From NCBI GenBank assembly GCA_028282325.1, contig JANQID010000019.1, positions 1 through 39,638 of the forward strand: a DNA stretch of 39,638 nucleotides. The letters are read 5' to 3'. The stretch comes from Chloroflexaceae bacterium. Lineage in GTDB: Bacteria; Chloroflexota; Chloroflexia; Chloroflexales; Chloroflexaceae. Shown piece by piece: positions 34,978 through 39,638 of the stretch (its first letter is position 1; each line of letters starts with the position of its first letter). The position numbers and the translations under genes are program-made. The notes below the pieces were generated by a model, which made no database searches, was not told the DNA's origin, and saw only the letters and a program-made list of their open reading frames with translations.

Positions 34978-36360
34978 ATGACCAAACATATTATCAACGG
35001 CCAACGCATTTACGCCCGTGAGGAAGGTCCGAAAACCGGGCAAGTTGCGTTACTTATCCACGGCTGGTCAAGCTCGTGGTACGCATTTTCGCCCTTGATC
35101 CCGCTGCTGAGCAAGCGGTTTCGCTGCATCGCCGTGGATTTGCCGGGTTACGGCAACTCGCCGCCGTTGCCCACGCGTGTGAGCATCGAAGCCTACGCCG
35201 ACATATTGTTCGATCTGCTCTGCGAAGTCACCGACAATCCGGCGGTAGTCATCGGCCACTCGATGGGCGGCATGATCGCCCTGACGATGGCGCTACGCCA
35301 CCGGGTGCAGATCGAGCGCCTGGTGCTGCTCTGCCCGACGGTGAGCGGTCATCTTTCGACCTCGATTAACCTGTTCGTCTCGCCGATCACGATGCTGGAG
35401 CGCTACCCCCTCGCCAACTGGATGGTCTCCGCAATGGAGCCGTATATGCTCAGCGTCACCGACCGGCTGATGCGTCCGGTGTCGTTCGCCGAGCGTACGG
35501 CCATCAGCGAGGATGACTACATTCGTCTGCGCTCCGACGCCCGCCGCCCTGGTCAGGGCCGGGTGCGCGCCGAGTGCTACTGGGCTATGCGTGAGGGTGA
35601 CCTGCGCGGCAAGCTGGCGGAGATCGAACCGCCATCGCTGGTGTTGTGGGGCGCCGAGGATAATACGGTGCCATTGCGCGACGCGGGCGTAGTCGCCGAC
35701 GAGTGGCCGTCCGCCGATCTGCGCATCATCCCCAAGGCCGGGCACTGGCCCCAGTTCGAGACCCCCGAAATCACCCGGCGCTATCTCACCGGCTTCCTGG
35801 GGTTGCCCAGCGAGTCCGGTCGCCTGAAAACCGGCGACGCCGCGCCGGAGGAAATCGAGGAGCTAGCGCAGATGATGCAACACTCCGAGATCGGCAGCAG
35901 CTTGAGTCAGGCCCAGCGCATTCGCCTGGCTTCTCAGGGCGTAATGCGCGAGTACCCTCCTGGCGCGGTAGTCGCCAGAGCGAATGAGCCCGGCGAAGAA
36001 TTGTTCATCGTGAAAGAAGGTTCGCTCGATGTGTTGCTCGTTCCCGAAGGTTCGAGCCAGCGCCTGGAAGAGCCGCATCAGATCGGCTCGATTCCGCCGG
36101 GCCAGATCACCGGCGAGCTGGCGCTGCTCGGCGGCGCACGCACGGCGGCGCTGCACGCCGGTTCGGAGGGTGCGATATTGCTGGTGCTGCACCGCGATGA
36201 TCTGCGGGCGCTCTTCGAGGATGATCCCGCGCTAGGCAACAAGGTGTTGTTGAATATCGCGTCGGCGCTGGCGTTGCGCTTGCGGCTGACCAACTGGCAG
36301 AAGCAGATGGCCGTTCAGGCACTGCAACGGTCTCAGCAGGAACTTGAAGTAAGCGCTTGA
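34978..36360 (+). CDS. Alpha/beta hydrolase fused to cyclic-nucleotide-binding domain
   Basis: A 460-residue fusion. Residues 1-270 are an alpha/beta hydrolase: oxyanion motif H-G-W (28-30), nucleophile elbow G-H-S-M-G-G (93-98, Ser95), the acid Asp in G-A-E-D-N-T-V-P and catalytic His in K-A-G-H-W. Residues about 300-435 are a CRP-type cyclic-nucleotide-binding domain with E-E-L-F-I-V-K-E-G-S and a phosphate-binding cassette G-E-L-A-L-L...R-T-A. No transmembrane or DNA-binding segment follows. Family logic suggests an esterase/lipase-like enzyme controlled by cAMP or cGMP; the substrate is not known. Upstream are a plus-strand TATAAT at 34821-34826 and a 7-bp dyad (34896-34902 with 34928-34934). 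Confidence 0.85.
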   Translation: MTKHIINGQRIYAREEGPKTGQVALLIHGWSSSWYAFSPLIPLLSKRFRCIAVDLPGYGNSPPLPTRVSIEAYADILFDLLCEVTDNPAVVIGHSMGGMIALTMALRHRVQIERLVLLCPTVSGHLSTSINLFVSPITMLERYPLANWMVSAMEPYMLSVTDRLMRPVSFAERTAISEDDYIRLRSDARRPGQGRVRAECYWAMREGDLRGKLAEIEPPSLVLWGAEDNTVPLRDAGVVADEWPSADLRIIPKAGHWPQFETPEITRRYLTGFLGLPSESGRLKTGDAAPEEIEELAQMMQHSEIGSSLSQAQRIRLASQGVMREYPPGAVVARANEPGEELFIVKEGSLDVLLVPEGSSQRLEEPHQIGSIPPGQITGELALLGGARTAALHAGSEGAILLVLHRDDLRALFEDDPALGNKVLLNIASALALRLRLTNWQKQMAVQALQRSQQELEVSA

Positions 36361-37219: not shown

Positions 37220-39638
37220 ATGAACGATGAGCGAATCGCCCAATTGCAAACCGAGATCGCGGGGTTGCGCAGTGCAATCGACGCGCTGGCCGCTATGCCC
37301 GCCGAGCAGGAGCGGATGCGCGGCCAACTCGCCGAACGCGAGCGCGAGCTGGCCGCGTTGACCGCACAACCGCCGGATCCCGGCGATGTCGTCCATGGCG
37401 ACAAGCCCGGCGGCGATAAGGTGCTGGGCCACAAGTACAACATCATCCAGAATTTCTTCGGCGGCGCGCGGACCGAAGACGGCGAACGCCTGCTGGCGGA
37501 TTACCTCGCCGGTATGTTGGGCGAGTGCCAGCAATTGCGCCTGCACCGGCTGACCGGCAAGCGCCAGAGCGGCAGCGAGCAGCAGGCCGCGCCCCAACTG
37601 CGCCTGCAACATGTCTACACCAGCCTGACCACCGACGGCCCGCCCGTAGCGACCAGCCGCCCCCGCACGCGCAGCGTCGCCCATCTGCGCGAGCTGTTGC
37701 AGCGCATCAACATCGATGAGTTGTCGCCCGATGTTTGCCCGCCGGAGCTGACGCGCACCGCCGGGTTTGGCGGCCTGCCGGAAGCGATCGACAACGGCCC
37801 GCGCGCCGGACGGGGCGGGCGCTCGATGGCAGACGATCCGCTCGACCAACTCCCCGACGATGCGCGCCTCGCGCTGGAGCTGACGCGCCCCGAACTGGCG
37901 CTCGAGGCCATCGCCCGCCATCCGCGCCTGGCGCTGCTCGGCGAGCCGGGGTCGGGCAAGAGCACGGCGCTGCGCTATCTGGCGCTGCTGCTGGCGCGCC
38001 GCCTGCTCGGCGAGGATGTGCGCATTCCCGGCTGGCCCGCCGACGCCGCGCCCGTGCCGATTGTGCTGCCGCTGGGGCGGGTGACGAAGGCGTTGCCCCG
38101 CTACGACAACGACGCGACGGCGGCGCTCTGGCATACGCTGGGCGATGTGCTGGAAGGCGAGCAAGGGCTGCGCAGCGGGTTGCGCGACTACCTCAAGCCG
38201 GCCCTGCGCCGGGGCGGCGTGGCGCTGCTCGGCGACGGGCTCGACGAATTGCCCGCGACGGCGAGCGACGGCGGCCCCGGTCCGCGCGCGCTGGTCGCCG
38301 CGGCGTTGCGCACCCTCGCCGCCGAGATCGGGGCCCGCGTGGTGGTGACCAGCCGCGTGCTGCCCTATCGCGCACCGGGCGATTGGAAGCTGACCGCCGA
38401 AGAGGGCTGGACGCTACGGGTGATCCAGCCGCTGGCCTTCGGGCAGGCGCGTGCGTTCATCGAAGGCTGGTATCGCGCGCTGGTCGAGACCGACGCCGGC
38501 CTGAGCGCCGCCGCCGAGCAACGCGCCGCCGCATTGATCGCCAAACTGGAAGGCAACGCGCGCCTGGTTCCGCTCACCCGCTCGCCGCTGCTGCTGACGA
38601 TGCTGGCCATTCTGCACTACAACACCGACGATATTCCCGACGACCGAGCCAAGCTGTACGAAGAGGTCGTTCAGTTGCTGCTCGAACGCTGGGAGCTGGT
38701 GCGCACGCCGGGCATGACGCGCCTCGGCCTGATCGAGCAACTGGGATCCCCGCCCGGCCTCACGCTCAACCTGCTGCGCGGCGTGCTGAATGATCTGGCC
38801 TTCCAGGCCCACGACCAGCCGCCGGGCGACGACGGGCGCGGCTTGCTCGACGGCGACAAGCTGCGTGGGCGTATGCTGACGTTTTTCGCCCGCGCCGCGC
38901 CCCAGATCGACGCCGGGGCCGCCGTCGCAACCTTCGTCAAGGCGCTGCACGAAGACGCCGGGCTGTTGCAGGGACGCGGCGACGAGGGCTTCGCCTTCCC
39001 GCACCTGACCTTCGAGGAGTATCTGAGCGCCTATCACCTGGCCGACCGCCAAGATATGATCGACCTGGCCTACCCGCGCTGGCAGAGCGCCGACCGCGAG
39101 CGCTGGCGCGAAGTGCTGCTGTTGTTGATGGGCCGCCTGCGCCAGCAAGGCCAGAAAGCCGCCGAGCGCGACGGCCTGCCCTGGTTAAAGGTTCTCGTCG
39201 CGCCTCGCACCAAACGCATGGGCGCCAAAGACCCGGCCCAACGCCGCCGCGACACGGTTCTGGCCGCGTTGAGCTACGTTGAACTCGGCGGCCAGGCCAC
39301 CTTCGCCAACAGCCTGCTCGACATCGAGCACGATATCGTGGCGCCGCTGCGCGCCGCGATTGCGGACCTGCTGGAAACACCCGACGCCGGCATCGGGCTG
39401 GCCGACCGCCTCGCCGCCGCGAACCTGCTGGGCAACCTCGGCGACCCGCGCCTGCTGGATCCGGACACCGGCAACGCGCCCGACGGGCGCTACTGGCGGC
39501 CCGTCGCGGCGGGCGACTTCTGGTACGGCGATGATCGAGAGGGCGACCTGCAACCGGTCGCGCTCGCCTATGATTTCCAGATCGCGCGCTTCCCGGTGAC
39601 CAACGCCGAGTTTGACCGCTTCATCGCCGCCGGCGGGT
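37220..39638 (+). CDS. NACHT NTPase with C-terminal FGE/sulfatase-modifying-factor domain (partial, cut by window end)
   Basis: The reading frame is open from ATG 37220 to the window end, giving 806 codons. Residues 1-48 form a coiled coil. A Gly-Asp-Lys-rich stretch follows at 55-70 (G-D-V-V-H-G-D-K, G-G-D-K-V-L-G). A helical region (about 85-130) leads to the NACHT domain: Walker A G-E-P-G-S-G-K-S-T (241-249), Walker B L-L-G-D-G-L-D-E-L near 335-343, sensor V-V-V-T-S-R, and the F-P-H-L-T-F-E-E-Y-L-S-A motif near 592. At about 755 an FGE-sulfatase domain begins (V-A-A-G-D-F-W-Y-G; F-P-V-T-N-A-E-F-D-R-F-I). NACHT STAND proteins oligomerise on recognition of a signal, and several bacterial ones act in phage defence; that use is inferred here. 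The start has no Shine-Dalgarno. Confidence 0.88.
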   Translation, partial: MNDERIAQLQTEIAGLRSAIDALAAMPAEQERMRGQLAERERELAALTAQPPDPGDVVHGDKPGGDKVLGHKYNIIQNFFGGARTEDGERLLADYLAGMLGECQQLRLHRLTGKRQSGSEQQAAPQLRLQHVYTSLTTDGPPVATSRPRTRSVAHLRELLQRINIDELSPDVCPPELTRTAGFGGLPEAIDNGPRAGRGGRSMADDPLDQLPDDARLALELTRPELALEAIARHPRLALLGEPGSGKSTALRYLALLLARRLLGEDVRIPGWPADAAPVPIVLPLGRVTKALPRYDNDATAALWHTLGDVLEGEQGLRSGLRDYLKPALRRGGVALLGDGLDELPATASDGGPGPRALVAAALRTLAAEIGARVVVTSRVLPYRAPGDWKLTAEEGWTLRVIQPLAFGQARAFIEGWYRALVETDAGLSAAAEQRAAALIAKLEGNARLVPLTRSPLLLTMLAILHYNTDDIPDDRAKLYEEVVQLLLERWELVRTPGMTRLGLIEQLGSPPGLTLNLLRGVLNDLAFQAHDQPPGDDGRGLLDGDKLRGRMLTFFARAAPQIDAGAAVATFVKALHEDAGLLQGRGDEGFAFPHLTFEEYLSAYHLADRQDMIDLAYPRWQSADRERWREVLLLLMGRLRQQGQKAAERDGLPWLKVLVAPRTKRMGAKDPAQRRRDTVLAALSYVELGGQATFANSLLDIEHDIVAPLRAAIADLLETPDAGIGLADRLAAANLLGNLGDPRLLDPDTGNAPDGRYWRPVAAGDFWYGDDREGDLQPVALAYDFQIARFPVTNAEFDRFIAAGG

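Follow-up and report, generated by a model that had tools for sequence, protein, structure and literature searches.

The window, that is, the whole stretch of 39,638 nucleotides that was analysed, is the entire contig C11 of a Chloroflexaceae genome assembled as 4.6 Mb in 140 contigs. At its right-hand end lies a gene that encodes an N-terminal coiled coil, a GD/GDK repeat, a NACHT core and the beginning of an FGE domain (Table 1). The reading frame runs up to the contig end without a stop codon and, because the window is the whole contig, the gene is truncated by the assembly. Full-length relatives typically have ∼1050–1160 residues, and the truncated FGE domain here lacks ∼240 residues. We found no near-identical continuation of the last 239 bases of the window in the assembly, and a search of the contig ends for a fitting FGE piece returned only the pair on contigs C54 and C60. 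These end pieces belong to other genes and were rejected as the rest of the window gene.

Table 1. Features of the NACHT-FGE gene and its product (positions in the window)
Feature	Position	Strand	Remarks
NACHT-FGE gene	37220..39637	+	ATG start, 806 residues seen, 3' end open at contig end
N-terminal coiled coil, helices 2-22 and 27-49	37223..37366	+	predicted structure
GD/GDK repeat module, GDVVHGDKPGGDKVLGHKYNIIQNF...	37382..37465	+	repeat at residues 55-73
NACHT core, then helical and winged-helix-type modules	37865..39454	+	residues ~216-745, NLR-like fold
Walker A GEPGSGKST, residues 241-249	37940..37966	+	sequence; conserved in alignment
Walker B region VALLGDGLDE, residues 334-343	38219..38248	+	LLGDGLDE at 336-343
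FGE (C-type-lectin fold) domain start, ~45-47 residues from ~759	39494..39637	+	Pfam match; relatives

The initial annotation had described an intact Walker A/B STAND core, and this description holds: both motifs are present, their key positions are unchanged across 14 aligned sequences, and D339, D342 and E343 of Walker B are invariant in the alignment. The NACHT core is followed by helical and winged-helix modules, as in NLR-like NACHT/STAND proteins. The N-terminal coiled coil proposed in the same annotation corresponds to two helices in the predicted structure, and the first part of an FGE-like fold is real, covering residues ∼759–805. The GD/GDK repeat is the lowest-confidence part of the predicted structure, and an α-helical stretch is predicted between it and the NACHT core. 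The window protein scores 17.8 bits against the Pfam NACHT model and 18.7 bits against the FGE model, below the respective cut-offs of 26.7 and 23.3 bits, whereas its relatives exceed both.

The predicted model of the window protein (mean pLDDT 85) matches animal NLRs in a fold search, with Z scores of 20.4 for NOD2, 18.6 for NLRP3 and 17.8 for NLRC4, and Foldseek matched NLRC4 with an E-value of 1e-8. The matched region consists of the NACHT core and the helical modules behind it, so that the two groups share the same fold of nucleotide-binding and subsequent helical modules. At ∼16% identity, the kinship is seen by fold search only; a phmmer search of the window protein against PDB sequences gave no match. 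The proteins differ outside the matched region, where we saw no death-fold domain in the window protein and where an FGE-type tail takes the place of the leucine-rich repeats of the animal NLRs.

The genes upstream are those for a DUF3054 protein, an α/β-hydrolase, a kinase/pyrophosphorylase and a thiolase, and acyl-CoA genes. The visible neighbours are housekeeping genes, and we identified no reverse transcriptase (RT), template repeat (TR) or defence gene upstream, at 25–37 kb of the window. No defence island can be seen around the gene, and a defence-island reading was rejected. PADLOC returned only P-loop matches, none above its cut-offs, and the NCBIfam antiphage models also stayed below their cut-offs (27.5 bits against 1000 for the EruA model). 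Two genes upstream of the NACHT gene, at 34978–36360, the α/β-hydrolase is fused to a cyclic-nucleotide-binding domain.

Eleven places in the genome match the window protein, itself included, and most of them are NACHT-FGE genes; a first scan of the genome's contigs with the single window protein had given no match. The relatives come from Ca. Chloroploca, Ca. Viridilinea and Oscillochloris, filamentous anoxygenic phototrophs of the same family, and in several genomes NACHT-FGE genes stand in tandem. The tree places the window protein with L042 (Ca. Viridilinea halotolerans) and L102 (support 94). This group belongs to a well-supported clade of 10, of which L040 (Ca. Chloroploca mongolica) and L041 (Ca. 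Chloroploca asiatica) are also members. Two paralogues, L064:1-2928 (on C54) and L066:1-2718 (on C60), have a hydrophobic, membrane-anchor-like N-terminus instead of the GD module.

A C-terminal FGE/CLec-fold domain, as found in STAND-FGE proteins associated with diversity-generating retroelements (DGRs), starts in the window and is whole in the relatives. We modelled this domain from the closest full-length relative (pLDDT 83). The model matches FGE/EgtB enzymes with Z scores of 17–22 and also matches the variable proteins of DGRs, namely Treponema TvpA (Z 18.3), Thermus TaqVP (10.4) and Mtd of a Bordetella phage (∼10; 9.8). These three proteins share the FGE/CLec fold and a variable repeat at the very C-terminus, but unlike the NACHT-FGE proteins they are not fused to a STAND NTPase. 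Among the relatives, variability in the FGE domain peaks between GAR and GFRV, and within the FGE tail the variable repeat (VR) stretch has the highest entropy (2.6 against 1.5 bits). Two genes of Ca. Viridilinea halotolerans, L042:158-3322 and L047:7230-10388, have near-identical FGE C-termini and only distantly similar NACHT cores, which could reflect either an exchange of tails between paralogues or an assembly chimera.

The search for an RT and a variable repeat that the initial annotation had called for succeeded in the genome and beside many relatives, but not at the window gene, whose 3' end is off the contig. RVT_1 genes lie beside two NACHT-FGE genes, and C54 and C49 each carry a complete DGR with RT, Avd, TR and VR. 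On the minus strand of C54 the order is VR, RT (418 aa), Avd and TR, followed by a NACHT-FGE gene; on C49 a NACHT-FGE gene with a VR at its 3' end is followed by RT, Avd and TR. Both RTs contain the motif GLPIGN.TSQ, which we take to be of the DGR type. The two Avd proteins, the only ones found by genome search, score 84 and 90.5 bits against NF033474 (cut-off 80). Between TR and VR of the C54 and C49 elements, 25 of 45 template adenines are changed and none of 113 other bases (Fisher p of 1e-10 and 2e-7 for adenine-only changes), in pairs that came from a scan filtered for adenine bias; each pair has 0 non-A changes and is flanked by RT and Avd. A third RT gene of the genome, C16:8123-9112 (L067), for which neither Avd nor TR was found, is probably not a DGR RT.

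Contigs C54 and C60 end in a common FGE segment of 99 bases, 53 of which also head the VR of C54, so the assembly broke at these shared VR flanks. The shared-end regions, all FGE 3' sequence, are C54:1-300, C54:4758-5057 and C60:1-300 of this genome (G000; L064, L066). Given the broken contig ends, the sequence makes it likely that the C54 DGR has more targets. The window contig ends before the shared VR flanks, in unique sequence, so the VR of the window gene, expected ∼650–750 bases past the contig end, lies outside the assembly. Since it lies there, we infer, rather than observe, that the window gene is itself diversified by a DGR.

In the C49 paralogue and in relatives, the 3' end of the gene is a variable repeat that differs from the TR at adenines. 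The closest relative with an adjoining RT is L040, whose gene has a VR at its end and RT, Avd and TR directly after it; 13 of 19 adenines are changed in this VR, compared with 7 of 65 other bases (p 2e-6), and L041 is similar (14 of 19 and 6 of 65). On the fetched stretches, an RT is present at 16 of 55 relatives' loci and a TR/VR pair at 15 of 55, pairs that were selected for adenine bias and are not pooled as a statistic. The TR of L057 lies elsewhere in its genome, on a different contig, and remote (trans) VRs have been proposed for Thiohalocapsa (PMC10907252).

These observations bear on two alternatives in which the window gene encodes something other than a diversified sensor. It could be a STAND sensor with a fixed FGE tail for one conserved ligand, the DGRs of the genome acting on other paralogues, and we regard this as a serious contender at somewhat less than even odds. 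We found neither an RT nor a TR close to the gene where its surroundings are visible, and the near relatives L042, L044 and L043 (L096, L100, L101) have no RT on the fetched stretches and have tails that fit none of the three TRs tried; L042 is the nearest relative. Against a fixed tail, L040 and L041, from the same clade of 10, carry VR-like tails that fit a TR, and trans VRs are proposed for Thiohalocapsa and occur here in L057. The other alternative, a true formylglycine-generating or sulfoxide-synthase-like enzyme joined to an NTPase with a regulatory role, agrees with FGE/EgtB being the top match of the tail in both sequence and fold, and with the two sulfatase-family genes of the genome. 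However, the cysteine pair of FGE occurs in 0 of 23 relatives, a count that rests on the aligned relatives, since the 125 regex matches include junk frames. The sulfatase genes sit on other contigs (C126 and C94), and the hypervariable part is the C-terminal segment, which in known DGR variable proteins makes up the binding face. We therefore consider an enzyme very unlikely. Because all 23 relatives lack the cysteine pair, we read the tail as a C-type-lectin-like scaffold that would bind a ligand, and this reading forms part of the overall explanation to which we give a probability below.

A third alternative arises from relatives in which the NACHT unit belongs to a larger system. In L102 and L099, from the clade of the window gene, and in the more distant L051, NACHT is fused behind a SAV_2336 (vWA-type) domain, and these sensor genes come directly after genes for a MoxR-like AAA protein and VMAP-C. 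L102 has 57% identity and stands beside L042 on the sister branch, and L099 carries a full FGE tail. The sets of VMAP-C, MoxR and SAV_2336(vWA)-NACHT(-FGE) genes are at L102:49-5854, L099:4875-12183 and L051:1684-9938. The order VMAP, MoxR, vWA has been published for the VMAP ternary conflict systems (PMC7159879); by analogy with it SAV_2336 would be the vWA component, here fused to the NACHT(-FGE) unit. The three fusions therefore indicate that this unit is used both alone and in ternary systems. The window gene might accordingly encode a former or free-standing vWA-component module of a VMAP-MoxR system that has lost its vWA part, a possibility favoured by the arrangement in L102 and L099. 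However, the window protein begins with its own coiled coil and has no vWA N-terminal domain, the genes directly upstream are not MoxR or VMAP genes, and genome search gave no SAV_2336 N-terminal domain. It also gave no VMAP-C match, a weak absence, as the control matched nowhere. On balance such an origin is improbable.

The G-D-K stretch behind the coiled coil has more weight than the initial annotation assumed, because it is shared with a caspase. With a composite query, the GDK repeat was found at only four places in the genome: the N-termini of NACHT-FGE proteins on C11, C4 and C69, and a protein on C121 (L164:619-2046, at ∼24.6 kb of C121). The C121 protein carries its GD repeat between two domains, a caspase domain scoring 37 bits (cut-off 21.4) and the ternary-complex-associated domain TCAD2, scoring 58 bits (cut-off 27). 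Its gene is not a neighbour of the window gene, whereas in amyloid-signalling NLR-effector pairs of the BASS type the motif is shared with an adjacent effector. A profile built from the three NACHT GDK motifs retrieves this caspase with 25.8 bits (E 3e-6), whereas the next unrelated frame scores 8.8 bits and none of 5000 shuffled caspase linkers exceeds 7.5 bits. At the level of sequence, the sharing is beyond chance, for a repeat of biased composition whose common descent is not proven. In this assembly a TAG stop codon interrupts the C121 frame close to where the caspase domain begins, so the caspase may be damaged, or the TAG base may be a sequencing error.

Relatives carry a GDV-type module on the N-termini of NACHT-FGE proteins and on small proteins beside them, and a profile of these modules did not retrieve the C121 caspase at an E-value of 1; only the GDK-type profile does. 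Two such small proteins are L112:615-1169 (31.9 bits) and L051:12377-12907 (25.3 bits, frame broken), and they adjoin genes that share a helical segment with a TIR-like or FGE partner, the TIR-like match being below its cut-off. L112:615-1169 joins the GD module to a helical C-terminal segment, and L112:1183-3189 has the same segment and an FGE-like tail; the first is possibly a two-headed adaptor and the second possibly a DGR target that lacks NACHT. No Pfam model covering the module was found, and a search of plasmids for the GD-module/TCAD2 tail gave no match.

The presence of the GDK repeat on three NACHT-FGE proteins and one caspase suggests a homotypic adaptor, and a GD module on both sensors and partners agrees with the published principle (PMC7159879, PMC8195603) that shared adaptors connect sensors with effectors. 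We tentatively propose that the GD repeat may be a previously undescribed homotypic adaptor through which DGR-diversified NACHT-FGE sensors engage caspase or TIR effectors. The route might be direct, through the caspase-TCAD2 protein, or might pass through the small two-headed proteins with a GD module and a helical domain that occur in relatives; the role would resemble that of ASC in bridging NLRP3 and caspase-1. We consider this proposal less likely than not and take it as a lead.

The best explanation of the locus, to which we assign a probability of roughly 0.7, is that the window gene encodes an intracellular NLR-like (STAND/NACHT) sensor with an FGE-fold binding tail. The original suggestion of a ligand sensor with an FGE-like domain is well supported by the NLR-like NACHT fold, the tail without the cysteine pair and the DGRs. 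A foreign ligand would bind the FGE tail and so cause the NACHT core to oligomerise in an ATP-dependent manner. The coiled coil and GD module at the N-terminus would then gather an effector, a candidate being the GD-module caspase on C121, and the outcome would probably be suicide or dormancy of the cell, protecting the filament. FGE tails of the family undergo adenine-specific retro-mutagenesis by DGRs, in this genome and in close relatives. The window gene would thereby have an anti-phage role.

The gene type itself, a DGR-diversified STAND-FGE sensor, is already known; what is new is the lead that the GD module may act as an adaptor. Kaur et al. 2021 (PMC8195603) described STAND-FGE proteins with DGRs as STAND NTPase-FGS conflict systems, which have the same architecture with varied N-termini, a DGR nearby or elsewhere in the genome, and effectors linked through common adaptors. 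The candidate adaptor of the window gene differs: it is a short GD repeat that follows a coiled coil and has no Pfam match. STAND-FGE proteins with DGRs have also been reported in multicellular bacteria, filamentous Chloroflexi included (Dore et al. 2024, PMC10907252); for the latter, that paper's references are to Ca. Chloroploca asiatica and Ca. Viridilinea mediisalina. The STAND/NACHT-CLec(FGE) antigen sensors of clade 5D in that study have the same NACHT core and C-terminal FGE/CLec domain, and that study's systems likewise combine several paralogues with several DGRs comprising RT, Avd, TR and paired targets. The window gene differs from them in that the contig ends before its own VR and no RT lies close by in the part that is visible. 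It differs from the VMAP ternary systems (PMC7159879) in having no vWA domain and no VMAP or MoxR genes in view. As of PMC10907252, there had been no experimental tests of STAND proteins with FGE/CLec tails, and none of the papers listed in our literature search reported later experimental work on DGR-diversified STAND proteins.

If the explanation is correct, a filamentous phototroph possesses a family of NLR-like sensors with binding tails that retroelements mutate again and again, a bacterial counterpart of innate sensors combined with somatic hypermutation. The GD module, if it is an adaptor, would physically connect sensor and caspase, a link that has so far been missing.
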